From positions 1-64,000 of IMG/VR virus record IMGVR_UViG_3300005613_000001: a stretch of DNA of 64,000 nucleotides, one strand, 5' to 3'. Each line of letters opens with the position of its first letter. Position 1 is the stretch's first letter. Below, one piece after another: positions 623-34,346 of the stretch. The notes under the pieces are model-generated. The model was not told the DNA's origin. It did not search any database and worked only from the letters and a program-made list of their open reading frames with translations. Source of the DNA: a virus. A program made the translations under genes and the position numbers.

Positions 623-1762
623 ATGAATTTCAGAGAATTTCTCTATCTTGAACTTAAATCGTCCCCTGGCGTTTTACAGCAGATACGCTCAGAACTGGCG
701 GCTAAAGGCTTCGTGTCAGTTGCCGTAGATGATATGGGTAATATCTCCACAAATGACCCCAGATTTGAAAAACATGGGAAACCATTAAGGTTTAATCGGA
801 GAATGGATAGAGTTTTTCTGAGTGATAAGAAGACTATTGGAATGGATAACATAGGCTCCACTGTAAAGCCTGCCATACAAAAATTAATTAAATTTCTTCT
901 CCAAAATGGGATTATTGATAATACGTGGTCATTTGATGATGGTCGTGGTATAGGTGAATTTTTAGGGTATAAATTTACGCATTTTCCCGATGAGTTAGCT
1001 GGCAAGACACCTGAAGAAGTTGCATCTATGGAACCGTTTTCTCGCGCAATTTCTAAATTGATCCTATTTCATGGTACTTCTCAGAAGGATTGGGAGAAAA
1101 TACAACAATTTGGGGCGCTCACGCCTCTATTTGTTGGTTCTGCTCAAGCCAAAGGCTTTGAAAGTCGGTCAAAACATTGGGGTAACGAAAAGTTACTTTA
1201 TTTAGCAACTGATCGAAAGGACGCCTGGCAGTATGCTAAAACTCGCGCAAGTGACGTAATGTTGGATTTAGAAAAGCGGTTAGAAAAGCGGATTAAAATT
1301 GCTGAAGACCAGGGAGACTGGGAAAAATCGGCAAGATTGGCAAAAGAGCTACAACAGATAAGCGGATCAAGGCACGATAGCCCTTGTCACCGTCCTGTAC
1401 TTCCGGTATTGCTTCGGGTGCGAATACCTGATATAAGCAATCTCCGCGCCGATGATGATGTAGTGAATAGCAACATGCGAAAGATGGGGCGTTGGCTCTG
1501 GAAAAAGAAGCCCCAGGAAGAAAAAGAGGCGGCTATTGCTCGTATGGATAAGGCGGTAGGATTTGAGACCGCCACAATGGCGGATCACATTTGGTCAAGC
1601 ACCGAGGGTTGGGAAGAAATCTTATCCAGATTGCCCAGTCGTATATATAAAGCCTGGTATGCCAGCATTATCAGGAGTCAGCAAGTTGCCTACAAGGGAA
1701 CCATCCCGATCCGATTTATTGAGGAAGTGCCTGTTTGTAATGCGAACCAATCGGGCGAATAA
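623..1762 (+). CDS. ADP-ribosyltransferase-like protein with capsid-targeting-like N-terminus
   Basis: This 379-residue protein carries the marks of the H-Y-type ADP-ribosyltransferase / RNA 2'-phosphotransferase fold: ILFHGTS near residue 149 (NAD-binding His), LLYLAT followed by a helix with A-x-x-Y-A near 190, and QVAYKGTIPIRFI near the C-terminus, where the third motif is expected. Proteins of this fold transfer ADP-ribose from NAD+ to protein or nucleic acid. The first residues, MNFREFLYLE, resemble the T4 internal-protein targeting peptide and are shared with genes at 8344, 12291, 12879 and 15075. No Shine-Dalgarno sequence is seen. The target is unknown; the fold assignment is fairly safe, the activity is inferred. 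Confidence 0.65.
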   Translation: MNFREFLYLELKSSPGVLQQIRSELAAKGFVSVAVDDMGNISTNDPRFEKHGKPLRFNRRMDRVFLSDKKTIGMDNIGSTVKPAIQKLIKFLLQNGIIDNTWSFDDGRGIGEFLGYKFTHFPDELAGKTPEEVASMEPFSRAISKLILFHGTSQKDWEKIQQFGALTPLFVGSAQAKGFESRSKHWGNEKLLYLATDRKDAWQYAKTRASDVMLDLEKRLEKRIKIAEDQGDWEKSARLAKELQQISGSRHDSPCHRPVLPVLLRVRIPDISNLRADDDVVNSNMRKMGRWLWKKKPQEEKEAAIARMDKAVGFETATMADHIWSSTEGWEEILSRLPSRIYKAWYASIIRSQQVAYKGTIPIRFIEEVPVCNANQSGE

Positions 1763-1871: not shown

Positions 1872-1879
1872 AATTGTAC
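1872..1879 (+). promoter_or_regulatory. AATTGTAC element, intergenic
   Basis: First of two copies before the sigma-factor gene. Its context GG-AATTGTAC-GGCG is nearly identical to that of the second copy at 1933. Confidence 0.55.
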
Positions 1880-1932: not shown

Positions 1933-1940
1933 AATTGTAC
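1933..1940 (+). promoter_or_regulatory. AATTGTAC element before sigma-factor gene
   Basis: This copy ends 48 bases before the chosen ATG at 1989. Seven copies in the window share a 44-55 base distance to a start codon, which supports a promoter or leader signal. Confidence 0.6.
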
Positions 1941-1988: not shown

Positions 1989-2981
1989 ATGGATATCATT
2001 CCTTTTGTTCCCATCCAAACTCCCGAATTACAAAGCTATCTTTGTGTGATGGAAACGGGAAACCGACTGATTAAGATTTGGTCGGAAAGATTTCTCGGCA
2101 AACGAAAAAGACGAACTTTCAGACAGATGTTGTTTAACGACGAGATCTGTGTAGAGAGTACGTCTTTTTGTACTTCTTGCCAGCACTATTCAATTCCCGA
2201 GCAGGACTATGAGAAAATCATGGCCGTGCGCAGAATTGAATGGGACATGATTTGTGGTTTTGCCCCTCTGGCAATTTTTCACGCGCACACTTGGAATTGC
2301 CGAATTGAGGAAGATTTATTTGAGGATTTAGCCCAAGCAGCCCATTTGGCTTTGCTGGATGCGATCTATGGGTATATTCCTGCTCGAAGTGCTGATGGTT
2401 ATAAATCGGCTAATTTCATGACTTACGCTTGGCGGGTGATTCAACGCCGTCTGCGCCGTGAGGTTGAAAATAACCAAATGCCGTTGTTGCCCCCTTCAGG
2501 TGATGGTGCAAGAGAATTAGTGAGGAAGTTTGAATTCTTCCGTCGCCACTATAACGATCATCTGACGTTTGACGCTGCGGCAGAATTAATGGGGCTTTCC
2601 CAAGAGCAGCAGAGCATTTTGTCTTCTGCGATGGTCAATGTGATGCGTGAATCCGAAATGCGGGTTTCGCTTCAAGATGATCGGGATTACGAAGATCCAG
2701 TTCGGGATGATTATACAAGCTTTGCCTCTGATTTGAATGTTGATGATCCGCTTGACAGTGGATTAATTAGAAACGTTCAACTTTGTATGAAATTGGCAAA
2801 CTTGTCTGATTTTCAAATGGATTTACTGGTCACTAGCCAAACCCCATATCATGGATGGAAAGCGGAAGTGGCACAACGTCACGGTCGCACTCGTCAGGCA
2901 TCAGCGCAAGCATTTAAAAAGGCTTGTGAACTGGTGAGGGAAAAATATTACGAACGATTTGGGAAAGATGTAGATTTCTAA
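1989..2981 (+). CDS. Sigma-70 family RNA polymerase sigma factor
   Basis: A 330-residue divergent sigma factor that would direct host core RNA polymerase to phage promoters. Region 2 is at residues 106-168 (DLFEDLAQAAHLALLDAIYG, then FMTYAWRVIQRRLRR for -10 recognition and melting). A region 3-like helix lies near 192-215 (LTFDAAAELMGLS). Region 4 lies near 262-325, with a helix-turn-helix around KAEVAQRHGRTRQASAQAFK. A longer frame begins with TTG at 1935 inside an AATTGTAC copy, but ATG 1989 has GAGGG just upstream and is preferred. Two AATTGTAC copies and a sigma-70-type promoter precede it. It is a natural candidate to recognise the repeated motif, although that is untested. Confidence 0.82.
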   Translation: MDIIPFVPIQTPELQSYLCVMETGNRLIKIWSERFLGKRKRRTFRQMLFNDEICVESTSFCTSCQHYSIPEQDYEKIMAVRRIEWDMICGFAPLAIFHAHTWNCRIEEDLFEDLAQAAHLALLDAIYGYIPARSADGYKSANFMTYAWRVIQRRLRREVENNQMPLLPPSGDGARELVRKFEFFRRHYNDHLTFDAAAELMGLSQEQQSILSSAMVNVMRESEMRVSLQDDRDYEDPVRDDYTSFASDLNVDDPLDSGLIRNVQLCMKLANLSDFQMDLLVTSQTPYHGWKAEVAQRHGRTRQASAQAFKKACELVREKYYERFGKDVDF

Positions 2982-3445
2982 TGGACTATAAATTTGTGGC
3001 TGGCGTTCCTGAGTTGAAGCCAATAAAAATTGAATCCAAAGAAGATTTGGCGAAAATAGCTAATGAAATGCGGGAGCATGCAAGAAGCATACGCCCAATT
3101 GAGAGTAAGCCAAATTATCCCCAGGATGAAGAGCAATTTGCAGAGGTAGTTAATGAAGCAACGAGTGATGCAGCCAAGCTAGCTCGCGCGATGAAGATGA
3201 ATCGTAAAATCATTCTTGGAGGCGAGTTAATTTCTGTTGCACTCTCTATAGACAAGTATCATAGCGACAGCGATCAGGAGTTTTGGCATTTATCTACAGG
3301 TTGGTTACGTCCAGCAGGGATTAAAAAAACACCAGATGAAGTCATAGAAGTTCTTTGTGAGGTATTTTTTGATAAGCCGCATGAAGAAATACCCTGTGAA
3401 GGGGTGATGATTCCAACAATTAGGCACTTCATCAGTCCAGTCTAA
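2981..3445 (+). CDS. Hypothetical protein, coupled to sigma factor
   Basis: The ATG overlaps the sigma-factor stop (TAATG), so translation is probably coupled. The 154-residue product is soluble and mixed-charge. A lysine/glutamate-rich first half leads into a segment with KIILGGELISVALSID and a tryptophan pair (FWHLSTGWLRP). I do not recognise the family. Its coupling hints at a partner or modulator role for the sigma factor, which is inference only. Confidence 0.7.
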   Translation: MDYKFVAGVPELKPIKIESKEDLAKIANEMREHARSIRPIESKPNYPQDEEQFAEVVNEATSDAAKLARAMKMNRKIILGGELISVALSIDKYHSDSDQEFWHLSTGWLRPAGIKKTPDEVIEVLCEVFFDKPHEEIPCEGVMIPTIRHFISPV

Positions 3446-3453
3446 TGGGGGGT

Positions 3454-3483
3454 TTGACGCGATCCCTACAGGGGTAATATATT
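3454..3483 (+). promoter_or_regulatory. Sigma-70-type promoter for the AAA+ gene
   Basis: TTGACG at 3454-3459 and TATATT at 3478-3483 are separated by 18 bases. The AATTGTAC copy at 3488 would fall on or next to the predicted transcription start. Confidence 0.45.
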
Positions 3484-3487
3484 TGCA

Positions 3488-3495
3488 AATTGTAC
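3488..3495 (+). promoter_or_regulatory. AATTGTAC element before AAA+ gene
   Basis: This copy ends 45 bases before the ATG at 3541. It is followed after 17 bases by GAATAT, which could serve as a weak -10. Confidence 0.55.
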
Positions 3496-3540
3496 CTAGT
3501 ATTCTGTGTGAGGAATATAAAAAGTACAAGGAGAAGCAAA

Positions 3541-5100
3541 ATGACCGACTTTTGGGATCGCGCAAGATATCATTTCGCCAAAGACAATCCTGGTTTCCGA
3601 CGTATGTTCGGTTTGACAGCGGAAACCCCGGAGCGTATTGAAGCGGAAGCAACAATTGAACGACAGAAGGCGCAAGTTAGACATCTTCAGACCGTTCCTC
3701 AAGGTCGTCTTGTCTTTAATGTTCTAGATGAACAAGTTCGTCGCAATATTCTTTTTGATTTTTCCGGCCCCAACTTATTTGCTCGTTTAATTGGAAACGA
3801 AGAAGCAAAAGAAGTGGTGGCTTGGAGTATCTTTGCTGCCCTTGGTCGTGAAGACCATGTTCTGGCTGAAAACTTCCTTCTTGCAGGCCCGGCATCGTCT
3901 GGTAAAACGATGTTTGCTCGGCTAATTGCTGAGACTCTGGGATTGCCTTTTATTGAAGTTGCTGCTTCCACTTTGGCGAAGCAACGGCAACCTTTGGAAT
4001 ATTTGCTAGACAAGATTATTGAAGTTTGTGCAAATTTCAAACCTGACGCAAACCTTAATCTGTATCATCCGAGAGTTGAGGATGCAGATGATTTAACTTT
4101 GCGACCCCGTATGTTAAACTATGATCCGCAACTTGAGAGCGGAAATTACTGTTTTAATCAATTTTCGCTTCCTCCGATGGTAGTGTTTATTGATGAAGCA
4201 CACGCATTGCCTTCGGCATTAGAGCAAGCTTTGTTGAAGGTGACGGAGCGTGGTGATGCGTTCATGACAACGGAAACAGACAGCACGGCAGATTGCAGTA
4301 AGGTTTGTTGGATTCTTGCTACAACTGAACGTGGTAAATTATTCAAGCCGTTTGATACTCGGTTTGAAAAGGTTAATCTCCGTCTTTACACTAAGGACGA
4401 AATTGCAGAGATTATTTCCAAAATTGATGAGTTTAAAGATTGGGATGGAGACACCTGCCGTTTGGTGGCTCATTATTGCAATCGCATTCCGCGAGAAGCA
4501 ATTAGTTTTGCGAGAAAAGTCCAGCAGGCGATGGTTGCCACGCCGGGCAAGTTGGAAGATGTTGCTGCTAGAGTCGCTGAGCGCAAGGGTATTGACCCCT
4601 TTGGTATGACCTATCAGCGGTTGGAAATTCTGCGTGTCCTTGGACAACGCCCCGCCTCTATTAATGCTTTGTGTGCTGCGGTGGGTTGTGAAGATGAAGA
4701 GTTGCGTAGGTTTATTCTTCCGTGGCTTATTGCTTCCACTCCCGATCAAGAGCCTTATGTGATTGTTACAAACCGGCACTACATTACGCCCGCTGGTTTG
4801 GCTGAATTGGATAAGCGGGACATTGAGCATAGGCCCGCTAAAGATATATTAACAAAAGCAGATTTTGCAGCATACTTGGACTCTAGGTATAAAGCTGTGA
4901 GTAGGTTCTATGCCGCTTTTGTGAAGGATTCGAAGACAACAGAAGAAATCCCCGGTGTTGAGAAGGCTTTGTCTGATCCTAAGAACATTGAAAACCTCAG
5001 GAGGGCGGGAAAAATTCTTGCCGCTGAGCACCCGGAAAAAGACAAGGTGAAGACGATGATGAAATGGATTGAAGAGTATCTCGATTGGCGAGGCGTTTAA
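3541..5100 (+). CDS. RuvB-like AAA+ ATPase
   Basis: A 519-residue AAA+ protein with the RuvB layout: Walker A GPASSGKT at 116-123, Walker B VVFIDEAHAL at about 214-223, sensor-1 ILATTE at about 258-263, arginine finger in DTRFEKVNL near 274, sensor-2 in IPREAISFARKV, then a winged-helix region beginning GMTYQRLEILRVLG. RuvB drives Holliday-junction branch migration; this protein is larger than bacterial RuvB, with about 60 extra N-terminal residues and a longer tail, so it may act as a replication or recombination motor or clamp-loader-like ATPase. ATG 3541 has AAGGAG 7 bases upstream; the longer TTG-type start is rejected. It opens the run that continues at 5100. Confidence 0.82.
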   Translation: MTDFWDRARYHFAKDNPGFRRMFGLTAETPERIEAEATIERQKAQVRHLQTVPQGRLVFNVLDEQVRRNILFDFSGPNLFARLIGNEEAKEVVAWSIFAALGREDHVLAENFLLAGPASSGKTMFARLIAETLGLPFIEVAASTLAKQRQPLEYLLDKIIEVCANFKPDANLNLYHPRVEDADDLTLRPRMLNYDPQLESGNYCFNQFSLPPMVVFIDEAHALPSALEQALLKVTERGDAFMTTETDSTADCSKVCWILATTERGKLFKPFDTRFEKVNLRLYTKDEIAEIISKIDEFKDWDGDTCRLVAHYCNRIPREAISFARKVQQAMVATPGKLEDVAARVAERKGIDPFGMTYQRLEILRVLGQRPASINALCAAVGCEDEELRRFILPWLIASTPDQEPYVIVTNRHYITPAGLAELDKRDIEHRPAKDILTKADFAAYLDSRYKAVSRFYAAFVKDSKTTEEIPGVEKALSDPKNIENLRRAGKILAAEHPEKDKVKTMMKWIEEYLDWRGV

Positions 5101-5756
5101 TGGATTGTAAGCACACATTTAAAAAGAGGCGGAAGTATACAAACGGTTGGAAGTATGTTTGTATTCACTGTGGTTTTAAAAGCAGAACTCTTAGAAAAAC
5201 TCTTAGAAAGAAGTCTCTTGGGATTAAAAAGAAGAAGAATTATAGACTGCTCCACAAAGATGGTATTGTTGAAATAAGAAAATATCCACCTTGTTATCGT
5301 ACACTTCTTCGGGGCAGCGGGTGCAAACCCGTTTTTGTTCCTTTGCCATATCAAGTATTCGCTGGGGTTAAATGTTCTCATTGTAGTGGTTATGGTCCTG
5401 GTCGGTTGTTCTTTGCGGCATTTGCGGGCGAGAATGATAAAGTCATTTATCCCAGCCCGTTTCGCTCATTGTCATCGCCTGTTTGTATTGATAATCAGTG
5501 GCACTACCGAGTGCCATCTAAGGCAGATTTGACAGAAGCGATTCGCAGATATTGGGGCACTTACTTTCACGATCCTCACACAATGCTTAAACGCCTCTTT
5601 AATGTAGAGACGTTGCGAGAATGGGCTAAATTATCGCCCGAAAGGGTATTGGAGATAAATTATGCAGAGAGAACTGTAGAGGGTTTTGTGGATGATGTTT
5701 TGCGGATTAAACAACGACATGAAGATCGCTATAATCGTTATAAAGGAATCTGGTAG
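5100..5756 (+). CDS. Repeated phage family, copy 1 (E2/PRTRC-B-like layout)
   Basis: First of three tandem paralogues. The N-terminus adds a small C-x-x-C/H zinc-binding-type segment (CKHTF...CIHCGF). The shared core then runs: VEIRKYPPCYRTLL, a hydrophobic LPYQVFAGV strand, RLFFAAFA, YPSPFRSLSSPVCID, VPSKADLTEAIRRYWGTYF, and a C-terminal helix with LREWAKLSPERVL. The order strand - LFFAAF - Y(P)PF/PL...VCID - ..YW.T.F resembles the PRTRC protein B / prokaryotic E2-like family, but the match is by eye and weak. Starts by TAATG overlap with the AAA+ gene. 218 residues. Confidence 0.65.
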   Translation: MDCKHTFKKRRKYTNGWKYVCIHCGFKSRTLRKTLRKKSLGIKKKKNYRLLHKDGIVEIRKYPPCYRTLLRGSGCKPVFVPLPYQVFAGVKCSHCSGYGPGRLFFAAFAGENDKVIYPSPFRSLSSPVCIDNQWHYRVPSKADLTEAIRRYWGTYFHDPHTMLKRLFNVETLREWAKLSPERVLEINYAERTVEGFVDDVLRIKQRHEDRYNRYKGIW

Positions 5757-6152
5757 GTGAAATATAAAACACTCTATCAAGATGATGATGTAGAAGTAAG
5801 GAAATATCCTCCAGTTAATCGTACACTCCTTTCTCGCAACCATAGTAAACTTATTGGTCATTTCGTTCCCTTCCCTTATCAAGTTTACACCGCAGTAAGA
5901 AGCAAAATATCGGGTGGTCGGCTTTTATATACAGCGTTTGCCAAGGCTGACGATAAGTTTCTTTATGCTACTCCTTTTAGATCCGTTGATGTCCCAGTGT
6001 GTATAGATATGCGTTGGCATGTTGTCATGCCAGATGATGTTGATATGGGCGAAGCCGTTGGCAGGTATTTATCTACTTATTTTCCCCCTTATATTGGCTC
6101 GCGTTTGCGTCATCTTTTACAAGTTGAAAGTTATCAAGAATATAGAAATTAG
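5757..6152 (+). CDS. Repeated phage family, copy 2, C-terminally shortened
   Basis: GTG start directly after the TAG of copy 1. It has the shared core (VEVRKYPPVNRTLL, FPYQVYTAV, RLLYTAFA, TPFRSVDVPVCID, AVGRYLSTYF) but stops at VESYQEYRN. Copy 1 continues at the equivalent point with the WAKLSPERVL helix and about 45 more residues. The frame of copy 3 starts inside its last codons, so a deletion appears to have fused the end of copy 2 to the beginning of copy 3 out of frame. Confidence 0.65.
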   Translation: MKYKTLYQDDDVEVRKYPPVNRTLLSRNHSKLIGHFVPFPYQVYTAVRSKISGGRLLYTAFAKADDKFLYATPFRSVDVPVCIDMRWHVVMPDDVDMGEAVGRYLSTYFPPYIGSRLRHLLQVESYQEYRN

Positions 6153-6660
6153 AAAATATCCTCCGGTTCGGCGTACACTTTTGTTAGATGCATACTCATC
6201 GCAGATGTGCGGCAACCCTGATTCTATTGTTCTTGAGTTTCCTTATCAAGTTTATGCTTTGGTGAGAAATTCGTATTGTAACGGGTATACTCATGGCTCC
6301 AAAAATGGTGCAAGATTCTTCTTTTCAGCATTTGCAAAGAGTGATGATGGATTGATATATCCCAGCCCTTTCACTGGTATAACTTCTCCAATTTGTATAG
6401 ATATGGATTGGCATTACGGTGTTCCCAATGAGATTGAAATGCCGGAAGTCATTGCAAGATATTGGGGGACTGATTTCTGGGAGCCAGGGCATAATACGCT
6501 AAGTCAGTATTTGAAAGTTGATACCCTTAAAGAGTGGGCAAAGTTGTCAAGAAAAAAGGTAATTCGTCGTTTGAAATATGGTGAGCGAACTTTAGATTTC
6601 GTTGTTGAGCGATTTCGAAAGTGTGTTCGCCACGGAGTTTTACATCAGTGGCGTGGTTAA
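6124..6660 (+). CDS. Repeated phage family, copy 3, without a clear start
   Basis: The core begins abruptly at IEIRKYPPVRRTLL and continues with FPYQVYALV, RFFFSAFA, YPSPFTGITSPICID, VIARYWGTDF and LKEWAKLSRKKVI. No ATG or GTG lies at the expected place: TTG 6124 is the nearest possibility, and ATG 6019 would lie deep inside copy 2 in another frame. Either a +1 frameshift near 6130-6150 joins copies 2 and 3, or this copy is translated poorly. Cysteine in the CID element is kept. Confidence 0.55.
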   Translation: MKVIKNIEIRKYPPVRRTLLLDAYSSQMCGNPDSIVLEFPYQVYALVRNSYCNGYTHGSKNGARFFFSAFAKSDDGLIYPSPFTGITSPICIDMDWHYGVPNEIEMPEVIARYWGTDFWEPGHNTLSQYLKVDTLKEWAKLSRKKVIRRLKYGERTLDFVVERFRKCVRHGVLHQWRG

Positions 6661-7013
6661 AAAGTCCATTCCCAGAATTCAACCAATTTTGTAGGCTTGG
6701 GCTCAACGAGACTTAAAGATTCCATTTGACGATTGTGACAATAAAGAGGCGCGTACTGTATTCTCTGAGGATTATAACTACGCCAAATTCTTAAAGGTAT
6801 GAGTTCTTGACAATCGGGGTTGGGGCATAAGTTATGTTGTATTTCACTTAAACTAAGCCCCTCTTCATATACCCGAGCGTCCTTTCCGCCAACAACTAAA
6901 ATGTTTTTCTGTACGCAGAAAGCAGCATTCGGCACAAACCCACCTGACATATATTCAAGGTGTGGGGCCGGTGTTGATAATGTTCCACAATCACTTGGAC
7001 AAGTATAACCCAT
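6657..7013 (-). CDS. Hypothetical cysteine-rich protein
   Basis: A 118-residue frame on the - strand fills an otherwise empty 398-base space between + strand genes. It has two zinc-binding-type pairs, TCPSDCGTL near the N-terminus and LCPNPDCQELIP in the middle. No Shine-Dalgarno sequence is obvious before the ATG at 7013. Its 4-base convergent overlap with the preceding gene and the sensible cysteine spacing support it; the lack of a clear start lowers confidence. Confidence 0.5.
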   Translation of the reverse strand: MGYTCPSDCGTLSTPAPHLEYMSGGFVPNAAFCVQKNILVVGGKDARVYEEGLSLSEIQHNLCPNPDCQELIPLRIWRSYNPQRIQYAPLYCHNRQMESLSLVEPKPTKLVEFWEWTF

Positions 7014-7037
7014 AATTCTATTTAGGGAAGAAATTAA

Positions 7038-7045
7038 AATTGTAC
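7038..7045 (+). promoter_or_regulatory. AATTGTAC element, start-proximal
   Basis: Ends 13 bases before the ATG at 7059, belonging to the short-distance group (10-14 bases). No Shine-Dalgarno sequence lies between it and the ATG. Confidence 0.5.
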
Positions 7046-7058
7046 GTAGTTTTAATAA

Positions 7059-7400
7059 ATGAACATTTCAGTAGAAACAGTAGGCTTTGGTCGCCATAGA
7101 ATAACAGATATTAATAAAGGCTTTTGGGATGGGTCAAAATGGACAGATAACCCCAGGAAAGCTAGACTTTACTATAAGTTTCAAGAGGCGGCAAAAGATT
7201 TAAAACAAATACAAGAAGTTACCCTAAACGGACAACCGAAAAAACGCTATCAAGCTAGGGTGGTGGTAGATGTCATTGGTGATAAGCCTATGGACCTTCC
7301 CACCTTCCTGTCAAAATCTGCAAAACTCTCTCTAACAGAGGCGGGAGAAAATCCGGTCCAATTAGAAATAGATTGGACTACCTTGGAGGAAGAGAAATGA
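7059..7400 (+). CDS. Hypothetical protein
   Basis: 113 residues, soluble, basic first half (GFGRHRI, KKRYQARVVVDVIG) and acidic tail (TTLEEEK). No recognised domain. It has no Shine-Dalgarno sequence, and its ATG follows an AATTGTAC copy closely, so it may be read from a very short leader. The next gene starts by ATGA overlap, so it opens a three-gene unit ending at the terminator at 8281. Confidence 0.65.
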   Translation: MNISVETVGFGRHRITDINKGFWDGSKWTDNPRKARLYYKFQEAAKDLKQIQEVTLNGQPKKRYQARVVVDVIGDKPMDLPTFLSKSAKLSLTEAGENPVQLEIDWTTLEEEK

Positions 7401-7879
7401 CTTTAGTGCTAGATGGCAGTAATCCGACTCTTCACGCAAAAACGTTTGGTGGGATTGGTGGGCTTGATAATTTATACCTCACGGAAGGATGGGTTGGATT
7501 GCCGTGCAAACAACAAACGTCAGAGATTGAATTTTCTATATCTGATTTTTGTAAAATCGTTAAAGGCTTCTTGTACGAGCCACAAGAATATGGTATAAAT
7601 AACCGCTATTGGGTCTTAAAAAATGATGAGGGAAAACGGTTTGTAGTTACGTTGTTTGATTTGGTGGCCCTCACTCAATATGTTTTCACCAACACAGACG
7701 TAGTGAATAATGATCCACGATTGGAGTTATTAGAAGACATAGAACAAAAACCCGAAGGGGAGTATCAGCTTCAGTTGTGGGATTGGCTTCGTTTATTAGA
7801 ACGGGTTGAGGGTTGGCCTCAATTTCCGCCTCCTAAGACCCCAACACAACGTCTTTCTCCAAAGGAGTATAAGACATGA
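7397..7879 (+). CDS. Hypothetical protein
   Basis: Starts at an ATGA overlap with GGAGG 8 bases upstream. 160 residues, soluble. Aromatic-rich in the middle (LYEPQEYGINNRYWVL) with a proline-rich tail (WPQFPPPKTPTQRL). No domain recognised. It sits between 7059 and the alpha-CTD-like gene. Confidence 0.65.
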   Translation: MTLVLDGSNPTLHAKTFGGIGGLDNLYLTEGWVGLPCKQQTSEIEFSISDFCKIVKGFLYEPQEYGINNRYWVLKNDEGKRFVVTLFDLVALTQYVFTNTDVVNNDPRLELLEDIEQKPEGEYQLQLWDWLRLLERVEGWPQFPPPKTPTQRLSPKEYKT

Positions 7880-8256
7880 TCAAAGCGCCCCCCGAATGGG
7901 AACTGCTTGAGGGTTGTTATTTAACAAAAGAAATAATGGAGGCACTTCACAGGGAGTCAGGAACTCATCTTGCTGAACTTGAGCCTGTAGGGCTTTCAGA
8001 ACGAACAACAAATGCTTTAGAGCGTGCAGGAATTCACACTTTAGGGGATTTGTTGTTTTTTGCTTGGGACGGAGAATTGGAGCGGGTTCACAACATGGGC
8101 GATGGCGCTCACCGGGAGATTTTAAAAGCTATCTCTTTACTTGATAGATTAGAAGAATTGGCCGATAAACACATGGCTAAGTTAATGCCTAATAGGGATA
8201 AAATTGAGGCGATTCGAGACTGGGGACTTGAGGCGGTACTTGCAGGAGCGTATTGA
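7876..8256 (+). CDS. RNA polymerase alpha-CTD-like protein
   Basis: Residues about 37-95 match the C-terminal domain of the RNA polymerase alpha subunit: PVGLSERTTNALERAGIHTL, then GDLL, and a helix-hairpin-helix-like MGDGAHREILKAI. In bacteria this domain binds UP elements and activators upstream of promoters. There is no N-terminal dimerisation domain, so it cannot replace alpha. It may compete with alpha-CTD, bridge a phage regulator to promoter DNA, or simply be an HhH DNA-binding protein. Strong Shine-Dalgarno AAAGGAG precedes the ATG. A terminator follows immediately. Confidence 0.68.
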   Translation: MIKAPPEWELLEGCYLTKEIMEALHRESGTHLAELEPVGLSERTTNALERAGIHTLGDLLFFAWDGELERVHNMGDGAHREILKAISLLDRLEELADKHMAKLMPNRDKIEAIRDWGLEAVLAGAY

Positions 8257-9652: not shown

Positions 9653-10627
9653 ATGATAAGAGATAAGATTTTAGGCATGTATTTAGGCACGCCCATTGGG
9701 GACATTCTAGGACTCCCTTTTGAAACTATGGAGTTTGGAACCTACGAGAGAGTTACGGATTATGGAGCTTGGGGAGTGCCTGTTGCGTGGTCAGATGATA
9801 CTCAATTTACTTTGGCTGTAACAAATTCTCTAATGGAATCCAGTGGGTTTGATATTAAATCACAGGCTCAATGGCATGTGAGAGCATATCAGGATACTAC
9901 TTTCGGTTGGGGCAGCACTACTAAATACTGCTGCCGGAAGTTATTAGAAGGTGTGCCCCCAACTGAAATGGAGTATGGGCAAACGAAGGGTACAGGCAAT
10001 GGAGTGGCTATGAAAATTAGTCCTATTGCTGCCTACATGCATTCCAATCGCCCAGGTCGCATTGGAATTAAAGAATATATCGTTCCTCTGGCCCAAGACA
10101 TTATTGACTTTTCTCGTATGACCCACCATTCGGCAGTATCAGCACAAAGCGGTTTAGCTCAAGTTGCTGCTGTGATGTATTGCTTATCTGTAGAGCCTGA
10201 TGAATTCTCTGCTGAGAGGTTCGTTGAAGAAGTTGTATTTGCGTCAGAGATTGGGCTTGAGCATCCTGAATTGACGGACGGCCCTGATCTTACAACAAGG
10301 CTCCGAATTGTTGACCGCCTCAAAGATTCTCCTCCTGAAGCGATTGTAGATGTATTTGGAGGCGGGACTTCATATGTTTATAATTCTTTACCTTTCAGTT
10401 ATGCGTTTTTCCTTCAGAATCCGCATAGCATTGAGAGTCTTTACGAGGTAGTTTCTGCGGGAGGCGACACAGACACTAACGGCGCTATTGTTGGTTGTCT
10501 TTTGGGCGCTCTTCACGGGAACAGAATCTTCCCAGATCATTTAATAGCTGGGATTCCATTAGCCGGTCTTGCGGAAATCAATGACATGGCTAATGCGTTT
10601 AATGATAAATTTTACAGCCGAGGCTGA
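9653..10627 (+). CDS. ADP-ribosylglycohydrolase family protein
   Basis: Removes ADP-ribose from modified proteins or hydrolyses ADP-ribose-linked substrates using two magnesium ions. The family motifs are visible: start IRDKILGMYLGTPIGDILG, metal-binding AWSDDTQFTLA near residues 43-53, GTGNGVAMKISPIAAYM, and the second metal site AGGDTDTNGAIVGCLLGALHG near 275-295. Length 324 is usual for the family. In this phage it may reverse modification by its own ADP-ribosyltransferase-like proteins or by host defences; this is inference. AATTGTAC follows its stop. Confidence 0.85.
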   Translation: MIRDKILGMYLGTPIGDILGLPFETMEFGTYERVTDYGAWGVPVAWSDDTQFTLAVTNSLMESSGFDIKSQAQWHVRAYQDTTFGWGSTTKYCCRKLLEGVPPTEMEYGQTKGTGNGVAMKISPIAAYMHSNRPGRIGIKEYIVPLAQDIIDFSRMTHHSAVSAQSGLAQVAAVMYCLSVEPDEFSAERFVEEVVFASEIGLEHPELTDGPDLTTRLRIVDRLKDSPPEAIVDVFGGGTSYVYNSLPFSYAFFLQNPHSIESLYEVVSAGGDTDTNGAIVGCLLGALHGNRIFPDHLIAGIPLAGLAEINDMANAFNDKFYSRG

Positions 10628-33689: not shown

Positions 33690-34346
33690 ATGAAATTATA
33701 TCATGGGACCGCTTTACGTTTTAAGGATGGCATTCTACAAGACGGGATAGAACCCCGAGGCGATGTAGATAGTAACTGGGATGCGCACCCAAGTAGGCCG
33801 GATTTGGTTTATTTGACTGTGGCGTATCCCTTTTATTTTGCGCTCTGTGCCGCCGAGAAAGAGCCTTTGTTGGTATTTGAGATTGATAGTGAGAAATTAG
33901 ATCAATCTCTTTTCCTCCCCGATGAAGACTTTATCGCACAAGTTATCTCCCAACAACAGAAAAAGCCTTTGGAAGAGATTCATCCGAGAGTGGTAGAATC
34001 TTTAGAGAGTTGGCAAGATCTTTGGGAAAAGAGCTTAGAGGGATTGGGAAATTGCTCTTACAAGGGCAGGATTCCGGCTGAAGCCATTACACGATATTGT
34101 GTATTTGACACTAAAGAGAGGCCCGAGATAGCACTGATGATGGCTGACCCATCTATCTCTATTATGAATTATTTCTTTGTTGGTAAAAGGAAGTATGTGC
34201 CTTTGGTAGAGTGGATGTTTGGTGATAGAGAGTCTATTCCTAATGAGTTTGAGGGGTTTGATCTTGTGGGAGTAATGGAAGACCAAATTAAATTTTGGCA
34301 GGAGGAATCTAAAAAGCGTAATGGGATCACAGTATGTACCGTATAA
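33690..34346 (+). CDS. ADP-ribosyltransferase / KptA-like protein
   Basis: 218 residues. MKLYHGTALRFKDGILQDGI carries the His-Gly-Thr motif, DLVYLTVAYPFYFAL the Tyr-containing strand with its following helix, and CSYKGRIPAEAITRY the third motif region (S-Y-K-G-R-I-P). This is the same plan as 623-1762 but without the extra N-terminal part and without the capsid-targeting-like peptide. It would use NAD+ to modify protein or nucleic acid. Activity inferred from the fold. Confidence 0.65.
   Translation: MKLYHGTALRFKDGILQDGIEPRGDVDSNWDAHPSRPDLVYLTVAYPFYFALCAAEKEPLLVFEIDSEKLDQSLFLPDEDFIAQVISQQQKKPLEEIHPRVVESLESWQDLWEKSLEGLGNCSYKGRIPAEAITRYCVFDTKERPEIALMMADPSISIMNYFFVGKRKYVPLVEWMFGDRESIPNEFEGFDLVGVMEDQIKFWQEESKKRNGITVCTV

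Follow-up and report, generated by a model that had tools for sequence, protein, structure and literature searches.

A 64,000-nucleotide (nt) stretch of virus DNA, comprising bases 1 to 64,000 of the IMG/VR record IMGVR_UViG_3300005613_000001 and referred to here as the window, was found to encode a very divergent sigma-70 factor whose gene is preceded by two copies of a repeated element, AATTGTAC. The complete record (G000) has a total length of 527,112 bp. Judged from its distribution and surroundings, AATTGTAC is the form that a promoter-like element with a TGTAC core takes in one lineage. A predicted feed-forward, or self-driving, arrangement, in which the sigma factor lies behind its own copy of the element, is well supported and recurs in other huge phages. 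The window also encodes a stand-alone protein resembling the C-terminal domain of the RNA polymerase alpha subunit (alpha-CTD), located in a unit headed by the same element.

Identification of the sigma factor and its AAA neighbor

The following features were assigned to the sigma locus of the window.

1872..1879, + strand, upstream copy of AATTGTAC before the sigma gene (TGTAC at −114 of the ATG)
1933..1940, + strand, proximal copy of AATTGTAC before the sigma gene (TGTAC at −53 of the ATG)
1989..2981, + strand, divergent sigma-70 factor ('class I') of 330 aa (open reading frame (ORF), profiles, family, and model)
2981..3445, + strand, small ORF between the sigma and AAA genes, with no family found in Pfam and PHROG searches
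3488..3495, + strand, AATTGTAC before the AAA gene (TGTAC at −50 of the AAA start)
3541..5100, + strand, AAA ATPase, RuvB-like by Pfam and clamp-loader-like by PHROGs (profile searches)

Genes were called by us, and the sigma start given by the automatic caller (2220) was replaced by 1989. The 330-aa product is, on the basis of its sequence and a predicted structure, a very divergent sigma-70 protein, for which core-polymerase binding and transcription initiation are predicted. It matched the PHROG sigma profile (E 3.6e-5), the NCBIfam sigma70 superfamily under that family's cut-off (E 8.4e-5), and Pfam Sigma70_r2 (PF04542) at E 0.068 and 13.4 bits, under the cut-off of 24 bits. Its relative in G004 exceeded the same region-2 cut-off with 26.2 bits, and the relatives in loci L043 and L038 scored under it. 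At E ≤ 1, the window protein gave no match to Sigma70_r4 (region 4); a C-terminal stretch resembling a helix-turn-helix was recognized by eye and is helical in the predicted model. The AlphaFold model, built from five family members, had a mean predicted local distance difference test (pLDDT) score of 72. Foldseek returned 51 matches for it at E ≤ 0.001, of which a Thermus sigma-A complex was the best (E 1.8e-6, with a TM-score of only 0.30); the similarity was local, with TM-scores of about 0.3 and root-mean-square deviations (rmsd) of about 25. The best 50 of the 51 matches were nearly all chains of bacterial transcription-initiation complexes, and two among the matches listed were integrative models named after ribosomal proteins with RNA polymerase subunits. 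The weak profile matches, the G004 relative over the cut-off, and the structural matches to sigma-A complexes thus agree with a first-pass annotation of the window, which had proposed a divergent sigma-70-type factor at 1989.

The family was searched for in 16 whole records using a six-member sigma alignment, and it was found in nine of them (G000, G002, G003, G004, G005, G006, G007, G020, and W01). W01 is the 595-kb phage record LR756511; G002, G004, and G006 are short (22–138 kb), G006 being a 102-kb fragment. Six of the nine records had supplied the query, and G003, G005, and G020 were newly found. The family was not found in G010–G012 or in the fragments G001, G008, and G009, the last two of 102–144 kb. 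Viral contig scans with the sigma protein alone, the alpha-CTD protein alone, or a two-member sigma alignment gave no close relatives.

The product of 3541–5100 matched Pfam AAA (5.6e-13) and RuvB_N (1.3e-8) and the PHROG clamp loader (1.5e-20). One sigma relative was found in W01, where the gene for an AAA protein lies about 0.7 kb after it; the AAA proteins of the window and W01 are 46% identical across their alignment. Scanning with an AAA alignment retrieved 18 IMG/VR loci, and in four of these the sigma profile detected a sigma gene ahead of the AAA gene (directly in L038, L040, and L042, and at about 1.5 kb in L043), with no significant match in the remaining 14. Altogether, six of the nine sigma-bearing records (the window, W01, and four IMG/VR records) have the sigma gene no more than 1.6 kb ahead of the AAA gene. 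The two genes are distant from each other in G003 and G005, and in G020 only the sigma gene was located.

Distribution of the element in the window and the record

The window contains 22 copies of AATTGTAC compared with 2.46 expected, a number reached in none of 100 shuffles. Twelve copies are in non-coding DNA, which makes up 6.7% of the window under our gene calls, and 13 precede a same-strand start by no more than 75 nt, a region in which AATTGTAC is the commonest 8-mer; a sample of 400 anagrams evidently contained the word itself, and its maxima do not serve as a control. All copies except one (21 of 22) run in the direction of the surrounding genes. The entire 527-kb record contains 59 copies versus 17 of the reversed word, and these 59 sites prefer A at −7 to −5, G/A at −2/−1, and C or G after the element. 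The copies at 1872 and 1933 precede the sigma gene and that at 7038 heads the alpha-CTD unit, as had been claimed from the first inspection. At about 54,300 of the window, gene direction and GC skew switch together, and the two minus-strand copies of AATTGTAC are found beyond the switch.

Several observations suggest that the element is close to the transcription start rather than at a −35 position. A ribosome-binding site (RBS) was scored at 23 G005 sites, and at seven of these it lies 10–15 nt after TTGTACC; the AAA start codon follows TGTAC at a distance of only 26–31 nt in G007, W01, and G004. If the genes are translated from these sites, distances this short leave no room for a −35 box, which argues for a start-proximal core. 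A −35 function was also rejected because AATTGTAC-N15-22-TANNNT occurred nine times versus twice for the reversed form in G000, in proportion to the 59 versus 17 copies of the element itself, and because no positional −10 signal was found across the 59 aligned G000 sites.

Recurrence of the TGTAC core in related records

In the relatives, TGTAC is embedded in words that differ between lineages. The repeated word around it is GCAGCTGTAC in the W01 locus, TAGTTGTACC in G007, TAACTGTACCAACTG in G004, and AAGTTTGATTGTACAATGT in G006; the element takes the form TTTTAGAG-ATTTGTACCCTA in L039 (G003) and TTTAGGGGAATTGTACCTACAGG in L044/L045. Thirty G005 sites picked by WTTGTACC have the longer form AATTGTACCCTA, preceded by A-rich DNA, and 16 plus-strand sites of G020 extend to AGGTCTATTGTACCCTAG. 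Such differing flanks are as expected if a reader and its site co-evolve.

In W01, G007, G004, and G006, TGTAC was present at −20 to −62 of both the sigma gene and the AAA gene (8/8), compared with four of 76 other RBS-marked starts in these loci (Fisher p ~1e-8, which is optimistic because the core and the window were chosen after inspection). When the 1023 pentamers were ranked by the longest word seen three times, TGTAC was first or joint first in G004 and G006 and only 43rd in W01 and 51st in G007, so that the case for the latter two rests on position.

In seven of the nine sigma-bearing records (G000, W01, G007, G004, G006, G003, and G005), TGTAC was found no more than 150 nt before the sigma start, although the G003 copy (at −27) may be a chance occurrence. 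In five of the nine, it is at −45 to −58 with differing flanks, and it is this recurrence that supports a self-driving sigma factor. Likewise, the 170 nt preceding the AAA gene contained TGTAC in 10 of 14 records (G000, W01, G007, G004, G006, G003 at −123 and −146, G005, G001, G008, and G009) and not in G002, G010, G011, or G012; these 14 are not independent, since the G001 and G005 loci gave identical counts and G008 and G009 share element sites. The core precedes the AAA gene in seven of the eight records that yielded both genes and in none of the three (G010, G011, and G012) in which the sigma family was not found.

Reader of the TGTAC element

That the 1989 sigma factor reads the TGTAC element is the explanation we favor, with modest confidence, from the arrangement described above. 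The following observations weigh against it. The TGTAC core and the distance windows were picked after inspection of the data. The sigma genes of G002 and G020 have no TGTAC in the 150 nt preceding them, and G002, which was outside the counts given above, had TGTAC at neither its sigma nor its AAA gene (0/2) and at one of 29 other starts. Conversely, TGTAC precedes the AAA gene in the fragments G008 and G009, as in the fragment G001, and no sigma gene was found in any of the three. The word WTTGTACC clearly exceeded its reversed control in only three of the 16 records (G001, 85 vs. 6; G005, 96 vs. 23; G003, 71 vs. 39), with a modest excess in G000 (49 vs. 32) and about equal numbers in G020 (36 vs. 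33); it fell below the control in 11, including W01 (11 vs. 54), G007 (15 vs. 53), G004, and G006. Hairpins at the 5' end, considered as evidence of a start site at the element, were found at 27 of the 59 sites versus 17–23 at four shifted positions and were discarded as such evidence. Some single hairpins at the element, e.g., in L010 and L004, are striking. Finally, G000 encodes three further sigma-like ORFs, two of them over the Pfam cut-off, any of which could read the element:

G000 ~177.9–178.5 kb (L079 1207–1779), − strand, further sigma-70 ORF over the region-2 cut-off
G000 ~219.9–221.0 kb (L069 751–1824), − strand, further sigma-70 ORF over the region-2 cut-off
G000 352.8 kb, weaker sigma-like ORF

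The TGTAC promoters might accordingly be read by another phage sigma factor or by an altered host holoenzyme, with the 1989 sigma being a cascade target that itself reads different, later promoters. We regard this as a lesser possibility that deserves attention. In addition to the three ORFs of G000, it draws on the PF04542 matches at E ≤ 0.1, weak ones included, which numbered four each in G000, G003, and G020 and three each in G005, G007, and W01, and on the records in which element and sigma part company (G008 and G009 with the element, G002 with the sigma). On the other hand, the 102-kb G006 has no PF04542 match, and only a sigma of the 1989 type was seen in it, yet it contains a 19-base repeated element; furthermore, in G010–G012 the AAA gene is not preceded by the element, and the 1989-type sigma is likewise missing. 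The presence of multiple sigma types in one huge-phage record suggests sigma cascades. By eye, loci L066–L085 contain distinct sigma types per record (short FliA-like, gp55-like, and primary-like), and the sigma at 220 kb of G000 has a zinc-finger-like tail that matches HNH-type PHROGs.

It is quite improbable that AATTGTAC serves a phage regulator as an operator over ordinary promoters and is not a core promoter element: GTAC is palindromic and inverted element pairs occur in G003 and G020, but the copies in the window are oriented with the genes, WTTGTACC in G005 runs 81 times forward versus 15 in reverse, an RBS is often only 10–15 nt downstream there, and the G000 sites have no common −10 hexamer. 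In L039 (G003) and L100–L101 (G020), TTGTACC is often accompanied by an inverted GGTACAA starting ~21–26 bp upstream, giving back-to-back pairs.

RNA polymerase used by the phage

The phage very probably uses the host RNA polymerase, judging from its gene content, as sigma genes are present and no phage polymerase was found. No match to the RpoC family (PF00623) was found in G000 and none to the RpoB family (PF00562) in G000 or W01, while 14 of 14 controls matched in each case; very divergent subunits could escape these searches. The motif DxDGD had five DNA matches in G000, none in a polymerase-like context by eye. A phage-encoded multisubunit RNA polymerase of the phiKZ type was considered unlikely on these grounds. 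The T7-like RNA polymerase family (PF00940) had no match in G000 and none over the cut-off in the 16 records, with weak matches in three of them, although none of 14 controls matched either. Some G005 sites read ...CCCTATAGG; T7-like promoters were considered unlikely in view of the PF00940 result. A 4407-aa open frame in G001 and G005 (L087 and L088) matched the C-terminal part of a T7-like RNA polymerase at only 12.2 bits, below the cut-off. Use of the host polymerase by sigma-bearing jumbo phages is stated in passages of PMC7824862 and PMC13282480. By impression only, small proteins of the phage look planctomycete-like, a tentative hint at the host.

Stand-alone alpha-CTD protein

The alpha-CTD unit of the window comprises the following features.

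7038..7045, + strand, AATTGTAC at the head of the unit, 13 nt before the ATG at 7059
7059..7400, + strand, first gene of the unit, no function assigned in Pfam and PHROG searches
7397..7879, + strand, second gene of the unit, overlapping both neighbors, no function assigned in Pfam and PHROG searches
7876..8256, + strand, stand-alone RNA polymerase alpha-CTD-like protein of 126 aa (PF03118, residue mapping, and structure comparison)

Residues 31–86 of the 126-aa protein matched PF03118 at E 2.6e-9 and 37.1 bits (cut-off, 23.8 bits). This was the sole Pfam match of the ORF, in which the N-terminal dimerization and core-assembly domain was not found, and the only PF03118 match in the 527-kb record at E ≤ 0.001. 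The stand-alone alpha-CTD-like protein proposed at 7876 from the first inspection is therefore confirmed at the level of the domain. Stand-alone ORFs of this kind were detected in three further virus records:

G005 (381 kb), L055, alpha-CTD ORF of 87 aa
G019 (79-kb contig), L061, alpha-CTD ORF of 110 aa
G020 (340 kb), L062, alpha-CTD ORF of 110 aa

The G019 and G020 proteins are 85% identical, and the two relatives scanned against PF03118 scored 35.0 and 38.7 bits. Among the nine sigma-bearing records, an alpha-CTD over the cut-off was present in three (G000, G005, and G020), and none was found at E ≤ 0.1 in G002, G003, G004, G006, G007, or W01, three of which are the short records noted above. 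Scans of cellular genome contigs for stand-alone alpha-CTDs using two alignments yielded 67 and 66 pattern stretches, none of which was confirmed. A phage collection gave no match for the window protein and one weak match for the G020 protein, and a plasmid collection gave none.

The four phage proteins were compared with E. coli RpoA at R265, N268, G296, C269, K298, and S299, which we take to be the DNA-binding (265) determinant of alpha-CTD. R265, N268, and G296 are conserved in all four (R265 and N268 correspond to R43 and N46 of the window protein), whereas C269, K298, and S299 are changed in all four, and E302 is conserved in one. A loss of the DNA-binding residues, which had been named as a finding that would overturn the assignment, is thus seen for part of the determinant and not for another part. 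At D259 and E261, presumably the 261 determinant by which the E. coli alpha-CTD contacts sigma region 4, all four carry P/Y and G. Of the six positions of the 287 determinant, G000 and G005 each conserve one, G019 three, and G020 none.

The predicted model of the window protein had a mean pLDDT of 57.6, with a moderately confident core and extra N- and C-terminal helices at low confidence. Its best VIA match was an alpha-CTD, with 63 aligned positions at a Z of 5.9 and an rmsd of 2.8, and rows 1–14 all belong, judging from their titles and ranges, to RNA polymerase alpha; the best Foldseek match had an E of 0.23. The fold alone is not decisive, because the N-terminal helix-hairpin-helix (HhH) domains of RAD51 score close behind (Z 5.1). 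Nor does PF03118 membership alone imply work with polymerase, because such domains also occur in BREX PglW (weak matches) and in a protein of Morganella phage Mecenats66 that is fused to NinX (24.6 bits).

Outside the window, the alpha-CTD genes are not closely associated with the element. In G019 and G020, no TGTAC was found within 900 nt upstream on the same strand, and the only upstream TGTAC in G005 is at −873 with a different flank. The feed-forward switch originally proposed for both genes is well supported for the sigma factor, given the TGTAC before its own gene in several lineages; the alpha-CTD unit is headed by the element in the window, the other three records being without a close element. 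Directly downstream of the alpha-CTD gene, G020 has an ORF for a gp32-like single-stranded DNA-binding protein (SSB; L062 5323–6150); in G019, a gp32-like SSB (L061 5744–6589, with a PF08804 match) follows after one small ORF. An ORF that is RNase H-like by eye comes after the SSB in both.

These neighbors, the near match of RAD51 HhH domains, and the PF03118-like domains of PglW and the Mecenats66 protein would fit an HhH protein that binds DNA in replication or repair and is unrelated to promoters. We consider this unlikely, though worth retaining, since the three proteins scanned scored well over the cut-off for the RpoA domain and R265 and N268 are conserved throughout. Somewhat less probable still is a decoy that would occupy host UP elements or alpha-CTD-holding activators and thereby shut down host transcription. 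A competitor would be expected to keep the main DNA-contact residues and to miss the N-terminal domain and the sigma-contact patch, as observed, and interference with the host alpha subunit has precedents in T4 Alt/ModA and phiKMV Rac, which modify or cleave it according to a passage of PMC7824862. However, K298 and S299 are lost, and the 287 determinant, which contacts CAP, keeps zero to three of its six positions.

Proposed mechanism

In the explanation favored here, the phage sigma factor would load onto the host RNA polymerase and direct it to phage promoters with a TGTAC core, which in this lineage would consist of an A-rich tract, GG, and AATTGTAC. Transcription would start just downstream of the element, which would act as a core of the −10 or initiator type. 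Because two promoter copies precede its gene, the sigma factor would reinforce its own synthesis, and it would also turn on the AAA gene together with a few dozen further units, among them the unit from which the alpha-CTD protein is made. This protein would be a detached DNA-gripping module. Lacking the N-terminal dimerization domain, it cannot enter the polymerase by the normal route; it may instead bind AT-rich DNA through its R265/N268/G296 surface and aid phage transcription through contact with the phage sigma or with some other factor of the phage.

For the alpha-CTD protein, a role in transcription is suggested only tentatively, and a partnership with the 1989 sigma in particular appears improbable. 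The initial proposal was that the two proteins provide two matched promoter-recognition surfaces. Their co-presence in three records and the retained R265, N268, and G296 agree with it; the lost sigma-contact patch, the six of nine sigma-bearing records without a detected alpha-CTD (some of them fragments), the three other sigma-like genes, and the lack of shared promoter control in other records do not, and the replication and decoy roles also fit. Slightly more doubtful is a portable huge-phage kit in which the sigma factor would read TGTAC near the start and the alpha-CTD protein would grip the A-rich or phage-specific upstream flank and touch the sigma factor or the polymerase by a new surface; if this were true, alpha-CTD action would be supplied in trans instead of being tethered to RpoA.

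A TGTAC core that recurs with lineage-specific flanks, with a putative sigma factor behind its own copy, would offer a handle on gene control in uncultured huge phages, and the operons and timing of phages that cannot be grown could then be read from sequence. A detached alpha-CTD with the main DNA-contact residues would allow upstream DNA grip to be tested in trans, for which usually only RpoA engineering is available.

Other observations in the window

The window positions 623–1762, 33690–34346, and 9653–10627 cover two ORFs in which an L(F/Y)HGT stretch is ADP-ribosyltransferase-like by eye only, with no Pfam match over the cut-off, together with an ADP-ribosylglycohydrolase (PF03747, E 1.1e-43). 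At 5100–6660, three tandem paralogous ORFs share the pattern RKYPP..RTLL..PYQVY, and no Pfam family was found for the one ORF scanned.

Comparison with known systems

T4 gp55 is a phage sigma factor that acts at late promoters with a −10 element only, a single element close to the start site. The system described here resembles it in combining a phage sigma factor with a single-element promoter near the start site. It differs in the element, which has a TGTAC core and not TATAAATA as in T4, and in the sigma factor, which has 330 aa and whose model aligns along whole sigma-A chains. Separate, shorter ORFs in W01 and G003 are gp55-like by eye only.

Group-2 jumbo phages, as described in parts of PMC7824862, are similar in having no phage RNA polymerase, none having been found here, in having sigma factors thought to recruit the host polymerase, and in their gp32-type SSB, which was seen here in G019. 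Unlike the present phage, they are described there with two sigma types and no stand-alone alpha-CTD, and a whole-word search of the text of PMC7824862 for 'CTD', 'alpha-CTD', and 'RpoA' found none of them. Those parts describe neither the TGTAC-core element nor the sigma–AAA pairing. No mention of a stand-alone phage alpha-CTD or a TGTAC element was found in the portions of the open-access literature covered, including PMC13282480, PMC7162821, and PMC12619734. Among the matches listed for the string AATTGTAC in open-access papers, none concerned phage promoters by title.

PHROG 28674, annotated as 'RNA polymerase', matched the alpha-CTD proteins weakly (E 0.0087 for G005 and 0.27 for the window). 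Compared with bacterial RpoA, the window protein shares the PF03118 domain over the cut-off and the conserved R265, N268, and G296, and it differs in having no N-terminal domain and in its changed K298, S299, C269, and 261 determinant. BREX PglW and ORF34 of the Morganella phage are similar in carrying a PF03118-like HhH domain outside RpoA; they are larger or fused proteins, whereas the domain here makes up most of the protein.

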